A stretch of 60,476 nt of DNA from an uncultured Chthonomonas sp. (GTDB taxonomy: Bacteria > Armatimonadota > Chthonomonadetes > Chthonomonadales > CAJBBX01), in NCBI GenBank assembly GCA_903951425.1, contig CAJBBX010000163.1:1-60476 (forward strand). Direction: 5' to 3'. Below are positions 23,690 through 30,268 of this stretch, one piece after another. The position numbers and the translations under genes are program-made. The notes below the pieces were generated by a model, which was given only the letters and a program-made list of their open reading frames with translations, did no database searches and was not told the DNA's origin. The first letter of the stretch is position 1; the number at the start of each line of letters is the position of its first letter.

Positions 23690-23719
23690 TAGACGAGCCG
23701 CGCCCTTACCCGCTACAAT
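23690..23719 (+). promoter_or_regulatory. Candidate promoter of the prenyl-synthase operon
   Basis: TAGACG (23690-23695), an 18-bp spacer and TACAAT (23714-23719). It sits about 29 bp upstream of the chosen TTG start, which itself has a good Shine-Dalgarno. An ATG at 23718 lies within this -10 element and so cannot be the start if this promoter is used. Confidence 0.5.
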
Positions 23720-23747
23720 GTGCCCTAGCCTGAACGGAGGAGCAACA

Positions 23748-24632
23748 TTGGACCTGCAAGCGTACTTGGCGTCCCAGCGAGCACTGGTGGACGCGGCTCT
23801 CGGCCGCTTGTTACCGACCGCCCACGAGCGGCCCGGCAAGCTGCATGAGGCCATGCGCTACAGCGTCCTGGCTCCGGGCAAGCGGCTTCGTCCGCTGTTG
23901 ATGATCGCGGCAGCCGAGGCGGTAGGCGGCCGAGCCGATGAGGTGATTACTGCGGCCTGCGGGCTTGAGTGCATCCACGCTTTCTCGCTGATTCACGATG
24001 ACCTGCCGTGCATGGATAACGACGACTACCGCAGGGGCCGGCTGACCAGCCACAAGGTCTTTGGCGATGCCATGGCCCTCCTTTGCGGCGATGCGCTGCT
24101 GGCTTTGGCGTTCGAACTGGTCTGCCGAACGGCGGAGCATGTGCCCTACGAGCGAGTGGTTGCTGCGCTACAACTAGTCGCCCAGGCCACGGGTACCTTC
24201 GGCATGGTCGGCGGTCAGGTTGTCGACATGGAGTCCGAGGGGCATGAGGTGGACGAGGCGACGCTCACGTTCATCCACTCACGCAAGACCGGCGCCCTGA
24301 TCACTGCGGCCGTCGTCTGCGGCGCCCTGCTGGCCAATGGCTCGGCCGAGGCGGTGTCGGACCTTCGGCGCTACGGGCGGCACGTGGGGCTCGCCTTCCA
24401 GATCGCGGACGACATCCTGGACGTCATCGGCGACGAGGCGAAGCTCGGGAAGCCCGTGGGGAGCGACGCCAGGAGCGACAAGGCCACCTATCCAAGGCTC
24501 ATGGGCCTGGATGCCTCCCGCCGGCGAGCCGAGCTGGAGGTCGCCGCCGCGGTGGCTACGCTGGCCGGCTTCGGGGCCGAGGCCGACCCGCTGCGCGCTA
24601 TGGCCGCCTATATCGTGGAGCGGGACAGCTAG
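23748..24632 (+). CDS. ispA: Short-chain isoprenyl diphosphate synthase (farnesyl/geranylgeranyl type)
   Basis: A 294-residue polyprenyl synthetase that condenses IPP with allylic diphosphates. The start is TTG 23748 with CGGAGG at 23735-23740, preferred over the ATG at 23718 inside the predicted promoter. The first Asp-rich motif is ECIHAFSLIHDDLPCMD and the second is QIADDILDV, with GKRLRPLLMIAA upstream. The pattern resembles E. coli IspA and GGPP synthases; chain length cannot be assigned with certainty. It heads a rightward run with rbsK and the SelB-like gene. Its substrates come from the MEP enzymes encoded elsewhere in the window. Confidence 0.9.
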   Translation: MDLQAYLASQRALVDAALGRLLPTAHERPGKLHEAMRYSVLAPGKRLRPLLMIAAAEAVGGRADEVITAACGLECIHAFSLIHDDLPCMDNDDYRRGRLTSHKVFGDAMALLCGDALLALAFELVCRTAEHVPYERVVAALQLVAQATGTFGMVGGQVVDMESEGHEVDEATLTFIHSRKTGALITAAVVCGALLANGSAEAVSDLRRYGRHVGLAFQIADDILDVIGDEAKLGKPVGSDARSDKATYPRLMGLDASRRRAELEVAAAVATLAGFGAEADPLRAMAAYIVERDS

Positions 24633-24652
24633 CCTGACCGGGGAGAGTGACA

Positions 24653-25570
24653 ATGAGCTCGCTGGTTCGCATCGCCGTAGTCGGTAGCACCAACACGGAC
24701 ATGGTCGCCAAGGCAGAGCGCCTTCCGCGGCCCGGCGAGACGGTCATCGGCAGCTCCTTCGTTACCGTGGCCGGCGGCAAGGGCGCCAATCAGGCCGTGG
24801 CTGCCGCGCGGCTCGGGGCGGAGGTCACCTTTATCGGCGCGGTCGGCGACGACGCCATGGGAGCCGAGGCGGTGGCGGGCCTCGCCGCCGAGGGGATCGA
24901 CGTCACCCATGTGGTCACATTGCCAGGGCAGGCCTCGGGAGTGGCGCTGATTCTGGTGGACAACCGGGGCCAGAACTCCATCATGGTGGCGCCGGGCGCC
25001 AACATGGCCCTGATGCCCAAGCACATCGACCGCGCCGGGGCAGCCATCGCTGCGGCCGACGTGGTGGTGCTGCAGTGCGAGACGCCGCTGGCAACGGTGC
25101 AACACGCCGCGGCGCTGGCCCGGATGCACGGCGTGCGCGTGATCCTGAACCCCGCCCCTGCCCAGTCCGTGCCGGCGGCCCTGCTCCAGTCTGTTGACCT
25201 GCTGACGCCCAACGAGAATGAGGCTGACGCCCTGCTGGGCGAGCCCGGCGCCGCCGAGTCCGACCCCGGTCGCGCCGCCGCCATGCTGGCGGCTCTGGCC
25301 GGATGCCGGGTGATCATTACCCTGGGTGTGCTAGGTGCGGTGGCCTGCCAGGGCTCGGACATCGCCCGCATCGCCCCGCGCCGTGTCGATGCTGTCGACG
25401 CTACGGCGGCCGGCGACTGCTTCACGGGCGCGCTGGCGGTGGGCCTGGCCGAGGGGCTCTCGCTGCTCGACGCCGCGGCGCAGGCCACGTTGGCAGCGTC
25501 CATCTCGGTGACCCGCTTGGGCGCCCAGTGCTCGCTCCCGACGCGGGCCGAAGTGGAAGCCTGCCTCTGA
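24653..25570 (+). CDS. rbsK: Ribokinase-type sugar kinase
   Basis: A 305-residue PfkB-family kinase that most resembles ribokinase. Visible motifs are VGSTNTDMVAKAERLP, the substrate motif VAGGKGANQAVAAARLG, LTPNENEADALLG, and the catalytic DATAAGDCFTGAL. The start is ATG 24653, with GGGGAGAG at 24640-24647; a GTG two codons earlier is possible. Ribose phosphorylation would feed the pentose phosphate pathway. No ribose transporter is nearby, so other sugars or nucleosides remain possible. Confidence 0.85.
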   Translation: MSSLVRIAVVGSTNTDMVAKAERLPRPGETVIGSSFVTVAGGKGANQAVAAARLGAEVTFIGAVGDDAMGAEAVAGLAAEGIDVTHVVTLPGQASGVALILVDNRGQNSIMVAPGANMALMPKHIDRAGAAIAAADVVVLQCETPLATVQHAAALARMHGVRVILNPAPAQSVPAALLQSVDLLTPNENEADALLGEPGAAESDPGRAAAMLAALAGCRVIITLGVLGAVACQGSDIARIAPRRVDAVDATAAGDCFTGALAVGLAEGLSLLDAAAQATLAASISVTRLGAQCSLPTRAEVEACL

Positions 25571-25590
25571 GGCCCGGAGGCGCCGCGCCC

Positions 25591-27195
25591 ATGCGACAGG
25601 TTATCGTGGGCCTCGTCGGGATCCCCGACGGAGCCGCTGCGTATCTGGCCGCCTCCCTCCGCGTGGGGCCGTCAGAGCCGGAGTGCCTCCTTGCCGACGG
25701 CGCCCGCGCATGGCTCCATCCACCCGAGCCGGACGGCCCATGGCAGACTGCGCTGCTAGTGGGAGGCCGGGCTGTGGACCTGGTGCTTGTGGCGCTCGAT
25801 GCGGCCGTGCCCGACGGAGACGTGGCGTTGGCGCAGGTCGTCGAGGTCGTCGGAGGTCTCGGCATCGGCGGTTGCGTGGTAGCCGTCCTGGGGCCTCGGA
25901 CCGGACGAAGGCCAATCCGGCCCTGCGGGCCCGGTTCGCACTCGGCGGGGCCGCGCGTGCACAGGGCGCTGTGTGATCTCGCGACCGGCGGCGGACTGGC
26001 TTCGCTGCGCCGCGCCCTGCTGTCTGAGGCCTCACGTGCTATCCTGCCCGGTGAGGGTTCGTCCTTTCGCGCCCAGGTGAGCAGCGTCGGCTTGTCGCCG
26101 TCCGGCGGCGTCCTGCTTCGGTGCTGGATCACTGGCGGCGCCGTGCGCAACGGCGACCCGGCGCGCCTGATGCCCGAAGGGCGCGATGTTCGAATCGGCC
26201 TGCCGGCGCACCGGCGCGGTCTGTGGCCCGCCTCGGTCGCGGCCGGGCAGATCGAGGTGGCCCTGGCCGGGGTGGATCCGGCCGCCGTCGCGCCGGGTTG
26301 CCTCCTCACATCCGATCCCTCCGTTGTTGCCTCTCGTCGCCTGTGCCTTGAGCCGTCGGCCGAGGCCCATCCGATTGGCGCCGGCAGTCGCGCCGAGTTG
26401 CTCATCGGCGGCCGGACTGTGCCGGTGGCCCTGGGCCCCGCCGACGATGCACGTGTCGAAGCCGCATCCGATGCGCCCGTGGCCTTCGCGCCCGGCGACC
26501 TGTGCCTGCTCCAACGGCTGGGAGGCTCAGTGGTCTCGTGCCGCGTCTCATCGGTCGCCGATCCTGCTGCCAATGCGGCGCAGCCCGAGCCGCCTGACGC
26601 GCTGCTGCGCGACCGGGCGCTACGCGCGCTCCAGGCCTACCATGAGCGTTTCCCTGTGCGCCTCGGAATGCCCATCGCCGAGCTAGCGGCTGCAGTCTCC
26701 GATCCGGATGCGCCCGATCGCCTTGGCGCTTGGGCGGTGGGCCTGGTTGAGAGGGAGGGCGCCCTCGCGCGGTTGCCGGGCTTCGAGCCGACGCTCCCGG
26801 ACCGGCAGCAGGCGCTCTACGAGCGCGTGGTGGCGTGCCTGGCCGCTTCGCCGCGTCAGGCGCTACGGGTCGAGGCCGTCGCGGCCGAGGCGGGCGCCCG
26901 GCCCGACGCCGCCCGCGCCATGCTTGCGCTGGCGCTCCGCCGGGGCGATGCCGCGGAACTGCCCTCCAACGTCTACGTGCATGCCGCGGTCCTGGCCGAG
27001 GCTCGGGTAGCCCTGGTGGCCTGTTCCGCGGAGCAGGGGAGTGTCGGGGTCGCCGAGTTCCGAGACCGGATCGGCGCAGGACGCAAGCTGGCGCTGCTGC
27101 TGCTGGAGCGATTCGACGAGGACGGCGTCACCGTGCGCACGGGTGACCTGCGGCATCTGCAGCGTGCGTCGGACCCCTCGCCGGGTAGTGCTTGA
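25591..27195 (+). CDS. selB: SelB-like elongation factor with a degenerate GTPase domain
   Basis: A 534-residue protein starting at ATG 25591 (GGAGG at 25576-25580). From about residue 159 on it matches SelB. The EF-Tu-like domain 2 reads FRAQVSS ... LRCWITGGAVRNGD, domain 3 follows, and the C-terminal winged helices that normally bind the SECIS hairpin are recognisable (AYHERFPVRLGMPIAELA; VAEFRDRIGAGRKLALLLLE; FDEDGVTVRTGDLR). The first 158 residues occupy the place of the G domain but lack its motifs. The P-loop position reads GLVGIPDGAA instead of GHVDHGKT, the DxPGH element is absent, and the NKxD position reads LGPRTG. Hydrophobic strands such as VDLVLVALDAAVPDG remain. It cannot bind GTP in the usual way. 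It is not a truncated fragment; the frame is intact and codon use matches the neighbours. Confidence 0.82.
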   Translation: MRQVIVGLVGIPDGAAAYLAASLRVGPSEPECLLADGARAWLHPPEPDGPWQTALLVGGRAVDLVLVALDAAVPDGDVALAQVVEVVGGLGIGGCVVAVLGPRTGRRPIRPCGPGSHSAGPRVHRALCDLATGGGLASLRRALLSEASRAILPGEGSSFRAQVSSVGLSPSGGVLLRCWITGGAVRNGDPARLMPEGRDVRIGLPAHRRGLWPASVAAGQIEVALAGVDPAAVAPGCLLTSDPSVVASRRLCLEPSAEAHPIGAGSRAELLIGGRTVPVALGPADDARVEAASDAPVAFAPGDLCLLQRLGGSVVSCRVSSVADPAANAAQPEPPDALLRDRALRALQAYHERFPVRLGMPIAELAAAVSDPDAPDRLGAWAVGLVEREGALARLPGFEPTLPDRQQALYERVVACLAASPRQALRVEAVAAEAGARPDAARAMLALALRRGDAAELPSNVYVHAAVLAEARVALVACSAEQGSVGVAEFRDRIGAGRKLALLLLERFDEDGVTVRTGDLRHLQRASDPSPGSA

Positions 27196-27220
27196 CTCCT
27201 CTGATGCCCTGTGGCACAAT
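27192..27220 (+). promoter_or_regulatory. Candidate promoter of the four-GAF gene
   Basis: TTGACT (27192-27197), a 17-bp spacer and CACAAT (27215-27220). The -35 overlaps the stop codon of the SelB-like gene. Predicted transcription start is near 27227, inside the downstream arm of a long inverted repeat. Confidence 0.6.
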
Positions 27221-27234
27221 GCGCATCAGAGGAG
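27196..27234. repeat. Perfect 12-bp inverted repeat flanking the -10 element
   Basis: CTCCTCTGATGC (27196-27207) and GCATCAGAGGAG (27223-27234) are exact reverse complements separated by 15 bp that contain the CACAAT -10. The left arm touches the -35 and the right arm covers the predicted start and the GAGGAG sequence near the ribosome site. This is a likely operator; in a read-through transcript from the upstream gene it would also form a stable hairpin hiding GAGGAG. No U-tract follows. Confidence 0.6.
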
Positions 27235-27249
27235 CAGGGAATCTCGAAC

Positions 27250-29217
27250 ATGAGCGCGCTGTCGGAGGGTAGGCTGGGAAGCGAAGCGGCCGGTCTGGCC
27301 GGCGCCGCGCAGTTGCTCGTCGCCGGGGGCGACCTCACCGAGACGCTAACCGGTATCGCCGAGCAGGTGAGGATCGCGTCGGGCGCCTCAACCGTGGTGA
27401 TCGGCCTGCGCGGCGACAGCGATTCCGTGCTGGACTTCGCCGCCGTGGCGGGCGGTAGCGTGTCCGAGTTCGTGGGTCTTCGTGTCCTGGTGGACGACTC
27501 CGTGGCGGACGAGGCCATCCACTTCGGCGTCACCGGCCCCGCACCGGGCCAGGCGCCGATGCCCGAGGCTTCTCCCCACACGGTGTCGGCTCCGATCCGT
27601 GATGGACAGCGGGTCCTCGGCGCCCTTATCGCCTCATGGCCCTCGGGCGAGGCCACGGTTGCCGGCTCAGGTCTGCTCCCCGCCTTTGCCGCACTGGTCG
27701 CCGCCGCAGTTGTGCGGCGCCGCTTGGCGGGCGAGGCCGTTGCGCTGGATCGCAGGCTCAAGGCCCTCCTCAACACCACGGCCACCATCGGCGGTAGCCT
27801 CCACGTGGCGGAGACGCTGGATGCCGTGCTGGACGCCGCCGAAGCGGGCATTAACCTCCAGGCCGCTGCCGTTTTCCTGCTGAATGACGAGCGCTCCCAC
27901 CTCTTCATCGGAGCCGACCGGGGCCTGAGTGCCGAGCAACGCGATGTGCAGCTCTCGCCGGAGTCGGGTCCTGCGGCGGATGTCCTGGCCACAGGCTGCG
28001 CCCGGATTCTGGCCCTGGACGCAGGCGACCCCACTGCCGATGTGTTGCCTTTTGATGTGCCGCCTCGCTCCGCAATGCTCCTGCCCCTTCGCGGCCGGCG
28101 TGATCCCGTGGGACTGCTGGTGGTCGTGGGTGCGCACACTGAGGCATTCGACGGGTCCGACCTGCACCTGATGGAGGCCGTGACGGTGCAGGCAGGTGTC
28201 GCGGTGGAGAACGCCTGGCTCTTCGAGGAGGCCACGCGGCGCACCGAGGAGGCCACGGCGCTCTTCAACCTCTCGCAGCAGGCAGGAGCGCTGCTGGACC
28301 CAGATCATGTGTTTGACCTCGTCGCGACGCAGGTGCAGCACCTCCTGAACGTCGACCAGTTCGCGGTCCTGACGCTGGACCCCCGCACGGGGCGTCTGGT
28401 TCCACGATGCACCCGCGGCCTGGCGGGGACGCGCTTTGCGTCCATGCGTCCGGCGGTGGGTGAGGGGATTGCGGGCTGGGTGTACGAGTGGATGACGCCG
28501 AGCGCCGTCGCCGATGTTGCCGCCGACGCTCGGGAGCGCGTGGCGCCAATCCACGACTGCGGCGTTGTCTCGTGCCTCTGTGTGCCGATGGCCGCCGGTG
28601 AGCAAGTGCTGGGCGTTGTGATGGCGATGACCAGCCGCCGCCGCCTCTTCACAGTGGGCGAGATGGAACTGCTCTACACCATTGCGAACCAGGCGGCCAT
28701 CTCCTCAGACAATGCCGCGCTCTACCAGTCGGCCCGCGACCGGTCCGCCGCCATGCGCCGCTACTTTCGCACGATCGCCGGAGCCCTGGGTAGCGCCATT
28801 GGGCGCGAGGATGTGCCGCTGCTGCTTGCCAAGCTCTGCCTGGACGTCGTGGAGGCCGACCGCGCGGTGGTCTGGGCCTGCGGTCCCGAGGGCCTGACGC
28901 CCGTGGCCGATGCCGGCCGCCGAGCCGGCGGCGTGCTCGAGCCGTTGCCCTTGGGCGCGGGCCTCTCGGGCTGGGTCGCACGGCGCGGGCGCACCCTTGT
29001 GACGCAGGCGATCGCCGACGACGAGCGCGCCCGCGCCGAGTCGTGGCTCACGTCCGGTAGGTTCGCATCGTATCTGGGCGTGCCGCTACGCACCGAAGGT
29101 CGTGTCGCTGCTGTGCTGGCGCTGGCCACCGAGCTGCCGAGGGCCTACTCGACCAGCGAGATGCAGCTCCTGCGCCATTTCGCGCTTCGTGCGCGGGTAG
29201 CCGAGCGCATCGCATAG
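27250..29217 (+). CDS. Protein with four tandem GAF domains and no output domain
   Basis: A 655-residue soluble protein built of four GAF-like domains at about residues 15-150, 165-325, 345-495 and 510-650. Typical segments are [43 protein letters not shown] ... [16 protein letters not shown] and [14 protein letters not shown] ... [21 protein letters not shown] domains bind small ligands or chromophores, or mediate dimerisation. No kinase, GGDEF, phosphatase or DNA-binding domain follows the last GAF. ATG 27250 has AGGGA upstream at 27236-27240. It has its own promoter with a long palindrome and is followed by trxB. The ligand is unknown. Confidence 0.85.
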
Positions 29218-29264: not shown

Positions 29265-30268
29265 ATGACCCCTGAATCCGACATCCGCAACGTCATCATC
29301 CTGGGTAGCGGGCCAGCAGGCTACACGGCCGCGCTTTATGCTTCCCGCGCCGGCCTGGAGCCGTTGGTCATCGATGGCGGCGTTGGGTCGGGGCAGGGCC
29401 TTCAAGGGCAGGGCGGCCAGCTGACCATTACGACCGAGGTGGAGAATTACCCCGGCTTCCCCGAGGGAATCATGGGCCCCGAGCTCATGGCTCGCATGCG
29501 TGAGCAGGTGGCCCGGTTTGGCGCCGAGTTCGTGGAGGATCTGGCGACCGGGTTGGATCTGGCCGCTTCACCCTTCACCATCACCGTGGGCGATGAAGCC
29601 CACCGGTGCAAGGTCCTGATTGTAGCCACCGGCGCCTCCGCCCGATGGTTGGGCCTCGACGCCGAGCGCCCGGTCTGGGAGGGCGGCCTGGGCGGCGCGG
29701 GCGTGTCGGCCTGCGCCACCTGCGACGGTGCGCTTCCCGTCTTCCGCGGCAAGGAGGTGGCCGTGGTCGGCGGCGGAGACACGGCGGCCGAGGAGGCGCT
29801 CTACCTCACGCACTTCGCCGCCAAGGTCACCGTAGTCCACCGGCGCGACCAGCTTCGCGCATCGGCCATCATGCAGCGCCGCCTGCAGGAGAACCCGAAG
29901 TCGACTATCTCTGGAACAAGGTCATCACCGACATCGAGGATCCAGCCGAGCGCAAGGTGACCGCCATCGTGCTGAAGGACACCCTGACCGGCGAAACCAG
30001 CCGCCGGCCGGTGGCGGGCGTGTTCATGGCAATCGGCCACAGGCCCAACAGCGATCTCGTGCGCGACTGGGTAGAGCTCGACCCGGCGGGCTACATCCGT
30101 ACGCACCGCGAAGTACGGACCACGCGGCGCGGAGTCTTTGCCTGCGGCGACGTCCAGGACACCGAGTACCGGCAGGCAATCTCCGCCGCCGGATCGGGCT
30201 GCATGGCGGCCATCCAGGCCGAGCGCTACCTGGCCGCCCTGGAGGCCGGCGCTGAGGTCGAGTGGTAG
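29265..30268 (+). pseudogene. trxB: Thioredoxin reductase, split by a -1 frameshift
   Basis: An NADPH- and FAD-dependent flavoprotein of about 334 codons. The N-terminal FAD site is [20 protein letters not shown], the redox pair is in [11 protein letters not shown], the NADPH site is [17 protein letters not shown], and the C-terminal FAD site is GVFACGDVQDTEYRQ. Frame 1 runs to about 29900 (LQENPK) and the rest ([14 protein letters not shown] ... EVEW) continues in the -1 frame. Restoring one G so that AAGTCG reads AAGGTCG joins them seamlessly. Without correction, frame 1 ends at 29960 after unrelated residues. Start ATG 29265 has AAGGAG at 29252-29257. Every catalytic motif is intact, so a sequencing or assembly indel is at least as likely as a true loss. 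Confidence 0.88.

Follow-up and report, generated by a model that had tools for sequence, protein, structure and literature searches.

We describe an orthologue, as judged from sequence and gene order, of the selenocysteine (Sec) elongation factor SelB that has lost every motif for GTP binding and is maintained under purifying selection in a genome without the Sec machinery. The gene lies in a stretch of 60,476 nt that was analysed as a whole (contig CAJBBX010000163.1; hereafter the window). Degenerate or truncated SelB proteins recur in Sec-less Armatimonadota, and we consider it fairly likely that SelB was repeatedly kept after Sec loss as a GTP-independent nucleic-acid-binding protein, probably one that binds mRNA hairpins, with a predicted role as regulator or translation accessory factor.

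Results

A SelB-Type Protein Without G Motifs

The gene is an open frame with an ATG start that begins 20 nt past the end of a pfkB-type sugar kinase gene (Table 1). Its GC3 is 0.80, compared with 0.82-0.91 in the neighboring genes. Hence, the full frame and the normal codon use that an earlier note on this DNA had claimed were both confirmed. Pfam searches with the 534-aa protein returned SelB-wing_2 (PF09106, 3.9e-8) and SelB-wing_3 (PF09107, 5.4e-15), both over the cut-off, and no GTP_EFTU domain. The protein matches solved C-terminal domains of SelB in a phmmer search (2ply, 7.9e-13), and its TIGR00475 score was 40.6 bits against a cut-off of 242. Two sister species encode a SelB-type protein of the same architecture with 80-81% identity. 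A structure model reached a mean pLDDT of 40 from three sequences and was therefore discarded.

Aligning the protein with four intact SelBs from its family revealed where it has been altered. GHVDHGKT is changed to GIPDGAAA, the switch I sequence RGMTIDLG is missing, DVPGHERF is reduced to DGP----WQ and TKxD is replaced by GPRTG. Deletions have removed winged helix 1 (WH1) and the last part of domain 3. None of the six frames of 24601-27400 contains a G motif, and therefore no normal G domain is hidden there; a frameshift before 25591 that would conceal one, as considered in the earlier note, was ruled out, as was a second G domain. The central claim of that note, a SelB homologue without any G motif, thus holds for G1, switch I, G3, and G4, in the protein and in all frames.

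Residues 1-120 likely represent the former G domain. A profile comparison of this part alone was not significant, while residues 132-163 match the end of the SelB G domain (E 2.7e-4). The assignment is based on position, on the first ten residues (MRQVIVGxVG, in the window protein MRQVIVGLVG, versus MKHVIIGTAG in the intact family SelBs), on a segment that aligns between them (VDLVLVALDAA / MDVALMVIAAD), and on relatives of intermediate form, among them G051, whose full-length SelB has lost all G motifs. We also considered that the N-terminal part was taken from another gene and found no other convincing copy in the family.

Domains 2-3 were recognized by profile comparison only, with residues 151-340 matching those of SelBs from Sec-using genomes (probability 95%, E 1.8e-8). 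The motif of winged helix 4 (WH4), FRD..G.GRK...T.R.GD.R, is very close to that of E. coli SelB. In the earlier note, domains 2 and 3 were called clearly recognizable along with the winged helices at the C-terminus. This is correct for domain 2 and WH2-WH4, but domain 3 is truncated and WH1 is gone.

Table 1. Predicted features of the SelB-type gene and its upstream neighbors (window positions).
Feature	Position	Strand	Evidence
Degenerate SelB orthologue, 534 aa	25591..27195	+	Open frame; Pfam SelB-wing_2/3; positional orthologue of intact family SelB; dN/dS 0.22
Putative former GTPase domain, residues 1-153, without any remaining G motif	25591..26049	+	Alignment; residues 132-163 match SelB G-domain end, E 2.7e-4
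Domain 2 plus truncated domain 3, about residues 154-325; conserved YSPM..(I/L)GGG segment of domain 3 deleted	26050..26566	+	Profile comparison; alignment; dN/dS about 0.37
Winged helix 2, residues 344-394; preceding WH1 deleted	26620..26772	+	PF09106, 3.9e-8; alignment
Winged helix 3, about residues 404-470	26800..27000	+	phmmer alignment to 2ply/1lva, residues 343-521
Winged helix 4, residues 480-523, motif FRDRIGAGRK...TVRTGDLRHL common to E. coli SelB	27028..27159	+	PF09107, 5.4e-15; alignment to 5lzb chain z
pfkB-type sugar kinase, the gene just before; conserved SelB neighbor in family	24647..25570	+	Directly upstream of intact SelB in G035, G036, G037 and of short remnant in G033, G034
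Polyprenyl synthetase gene, also a conserved neighbor	23718..24632	+	Near SelB or remnant in G033-G036

Sec Machinery and Descent in Place

Since the earlier note had proposed a search of the rest of the genome for selA, selC, selD, and a second selB, we looked for these genes in the window genome (6.08 Mb, 100% complete). All were absent: selA was not found, selD gave no match over the cut-off, there was no tRNA-Sec (selC) and no second or intact selB, other SelB-type G domains in this genome being below the family cut-off. The only RF01852 match over the cut-off (48 bits) was a tRNA-Ser(CGA). The absence of selA, selC, selD, and intact selB is shared by three species of the genus (98-100% complete). 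Given this agreement between near-complete sister genomes, we rejected the idea that Sec genes were missed through MAG gaps. In family f22, three genomes (G193, G194, and G197) carry tRNA-Sec-like genes that score about 57-58 bits against a cut-off of 47 and have no listed selA or SelB-wing_3 match; these might be unusual long-arm tRNAs or Sec remnants.

Four genomes of the same family as the window genome (G030, G035, G036, and G037) possess selA, tRNA-Sec, and an intact SelB. The selD genes of G030 (L205), G037 (L206), and G036 (L207) contain an in-frame TGA and probably encode selenoproteins themselves. The intact SelB and its remnants share upstream neighbors with the window gene (Table 1), and in G033 and G034 pfkB is followed by a WH3-WH4-only remnant within an open frame of 214-239 aa. 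On the evidence of gene order and sequence, the window gene is the vertical descendant, in place, of SelB in a lineage that lost Sec decoding. Elsewhere in the window, a trxB-like thioredoxin reductase gene (29265-30268) is split by a frameshift into two frames in the assembly; in a sister species it is a single intact frame of 334 aa (L011 9675-10679).

Purifying Selection on the Degenerate Protein

In three species of the genus the frame is open at a dS of about 0.5, and dN/dS of the gene is 0.21-0.23, compared with 0.02-0.17 for eight neighbors. Within the genus, residues 1-110 are the best-conserved part (0.08-0.13), followed by WH2 (0.12-0.22) and WH3-WH4 (0.15-0.21), and values are highest in domains 2-3 (about 0.37). 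The protein is thus maintained under purifying selection, as had been supposed, and the former G domain most of all. The earlier note had also envisaged an intact SelB in relatives combined with relaxed selection on this copy; the intact gene does exist in the family (G030, G035, G036, and G037), but relaxed selection was not observed. Elsewhere, dN/dS was 0.07-0.15 for the closest pairs of genus g85, 0.06 for G118/G119, 0.04 for G081/G088, and 0.07 for G091/G096. In g85 the DNA upstream of the genes is not conserved, whereas the protein is.

SelB Remnants Recur in Sec-less Armatimonadota

Of 291 Armatimonadota genomes, 197 have a SelB-wing_3 match; of 14 control genomes, only E. coli has one. 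We read 95 loci in Armatimonadota; the counts given here refer to 44 SelB loci of Sec-using genomes and 47 SelB-type loci of Sec-less genomes. G1 and G3 were both intact in 43/44 of the former but in only 2/47 of the latter (Fisher p 2e-22, uncorrected for relatedness). The exception in a Sec-using genome, G047, is cut by a contig end. The two Sec-less loci that passed are those of G014 and G096, the latter with an altered P-loop (GPHEAGKS) and without TKxD. The intact SelB of G014 without a found selA is probably due to an assembly gap, as its sister G013 has a tRNA-Sec. We counted G034 as Sec-less despite a selA at a contig edge (G034:C41:80-1411). This genome has 6% contamination, no tRNA-Sec over the cut-off and only a short SelB remnant, and its selA is possibly a contaminant.

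All of the 47 Sec-less loci, which come from five families, are degenerate or truncated, except for that of G014. Full-length forms with broken G motifs are found in G046, G051, G053, G089, G091, and G096. The Sec-less loci often lie where SelB originally stood. Many others are reduced to 110-280 aa of winged helices: proteins of about 250-280 aa with four winged helices (G015-G018, G073, G080-G082, G087, and G092-G095) and WH3-WH4-only proteins of about 110-150 aa (G033, G034, G136, G144, and f16 genomes from G158 to G175). Minimal forms match the solved WH3-WH4 domain of SelB (1wsu, 5e-5 and 2.6e-6). An asparaginase_2-type gene lies directly upstream of the intact SelB or the remnant in 28 genomes of families f2 and f15, and the remnants there are hence also SelB in place. 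In G118 (L189) and G119 (L190) a remnant apparently retains the latter half of the G domain, joined to the winged helices, a further decay intermediate. G243 has two SelB-type loci, C194:4614-5186 and C121:51273-51866, in open frames of 636 and 660 aa, and possibly has two SelBs.

Families f1, f2, f8, f15, and f16 contain remnants (INDEPENDENCE), and in each of them there are also Sec-using genomes whose SelB is intact. Both states are found within six genera (g52, g56, g64, g66, g76, and g80). A gene tree of the C-terminal region gave 17 parsimony changes of Sec status, at least four of them forced by well-supported branches, and some genera may have regained Sec by transfer.

The tail of WH4, T.R.GD.R, is kept in 15/47 Sec-less loci compared with 37/44 of Sec-using genomes; it is kept in genus g1 and absent in g85. 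With the tail altered in so many Sec-less forms, their RNA specificity has probably shifted and may even be lost. Hairpin scans for a target RNA gave nothing convincing. A conserved hairpin at the start codon reached a z of about -4 in an alignment fold, but single-sequence folds gave z values of +0.4, -0.8, and +0.1, and we rejected it. Upstream of the minimal g85 genes no convincing conserved RNA was found.

Discussion

Domain IV of SelB, which comprises four winged helices, recognizes the SECIS hairpin (PMC8124441). We propose that the window protein has been kept for these C-terminal winged helices, which in SelB grip the mRNA hairpin. In the elongation-factor part, GTP binding in the known way would be gone, and tRNA carriage probably as well. 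After the loss of Sec, many Armatimonadota would independently have acquired or retained the same residual use, in many cases through a protein of 110-280 aa that consists of hardly more than winged helices. The likeliest activity seems to be the binding of an RNA hairpin without GTP, because the window protein has kept the WH4 motif, close to that of E. coli SelB. Moreover, the repeated retention of the winged-helix module hints at a second function that would pre-date Sec loss. SelB may then already be a two-function protein in Sec-using relatives, its winged helices having a Sec-independent role, and at each Sec loss the module would have been kept and trimmed to its essentials. We put this forward tentatively, at somewhat less than even chances.

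The protein might also be a pseudogene that decays slowly after Sec loss. Its dN/dS of 0.22 does exceed that of most neighbors, and domain 3 and WH1 are partly deleted with domains 2-3 at about 0.37. However, the frame has stayed open in three species, both the N-terminal part and WH3-WH4 are constrained, independent remnants are strongly constrained, and SelB remnants are retained in dozens of Sec-less genomes; we therefore disfavor decay as very improbable. Even more improbable is a Sec decoding system that is still at work, its components having escaped the assemblies or its G function being provided by a separate GTPase. All genomes analysed were drafts or single database entries, G014 has an intact SelB for which no selA was found, and in G034 a selA lies at the edge of a contig. 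However, the absence of the machinery in three near-complete species of the genus, with other SelB-type G domains of the window genome below the family cut-off, speaks strongly against it. For the separate GTPase partner suggested in the earlier note we found no support.

Two further possibilities accept that the protein is functional and place its activity elsewhere. The former G domain is the best-conserved part in g1, so that the function may reside there and not in the winged helices. It could then be the working part of a GTP-independent tRNA- or ribosome-binding factor similar to archaeal aSelBL, an earlier example of a SelB maintained despite its broken G domain (PMC3037878). This appears improbable, since several lineages have no G domain or domains 2-3 at all, and the window protein has a truncated domain 3 and keeps the C-terminal part that aSelBL lacks. 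Alternatively, the winged helices could now bind DNA and regulate transcription, or mediate protein-protein contacts, and not bind RNA. Winged helices commonly bind DNA and can also bind protein, a minimal form gave one weak GntR-type match (2di3, E 0.08), helix-turn-helix matches of G118 stayed below the cut-off, and the RNA motif of WH4 is altered in many Sec-less forms. We regard this as unlikely, although worth keeping in mind, because the sequence is still closest to SelB WH3-WH4 and the full motif of SECIS-binding SelB is kept in g1. RNA-hairpin binding by the winged helices remains our preferred reading.

SelB together with SelC has been used as a signature of the Sec trait (PMC1273633), and a survey that drew its 75 SelB sequences from 75 Sec-decoding genomes put no orphan SelB to one side (PMC1794560). 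The repeated retention of a GTPase-stripped SelB in Sec-less genomes breaks this rule, and a SelB-wing match in an annotation does not imply selenocysteine. The phylum offers natural experiments with an intact protein, a broken G domain, four winged helices, and two winged helices. Should the winged helices act independently of Sec, their binding partner becomes a direct question, for which the forms of 110-140 aa are handy test objects.

In the openly accessible literature that we searched, we found no report of C-terminal-only SelB or SelB-like proteins in bacteria, only archaeal aSelBL. SelA homologues occur in organisms without selenoproteins (PMC1794560) and are likewise Sec-pathway proteins kept after trait loss, although a different protein is concerned. 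Compared with bacterial SelB (TIGR00475; Moorella 2ply/1lva/1wsu, E. coli 5lzb), the window protein has the orthologous position, domain 2, WH2, WH3, and WH4 with its motif, but lacks the GTP-binding motifs and WH1, has a shortened domain 3 and resides in a genome without Sec machinery. The nearest precedent is archaeal aSelBL, a SelB relative in Sec-less archaea with a disrupted G domain that is apparently maintained and has no C-terminal SECIS-binding domain (PMC3037878). Both are SelB descendants in Sec-less organisms. However, aSelBL keeps the tRNA/ribosome-binding elongation-factor body with intact domains 2-3, whereas the window protein has lost this body and keeps the C-terminal winged helices. 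Furthermore, aSelBL is inferred to derive from a duplication, while the window protein is SelB itself, in place.
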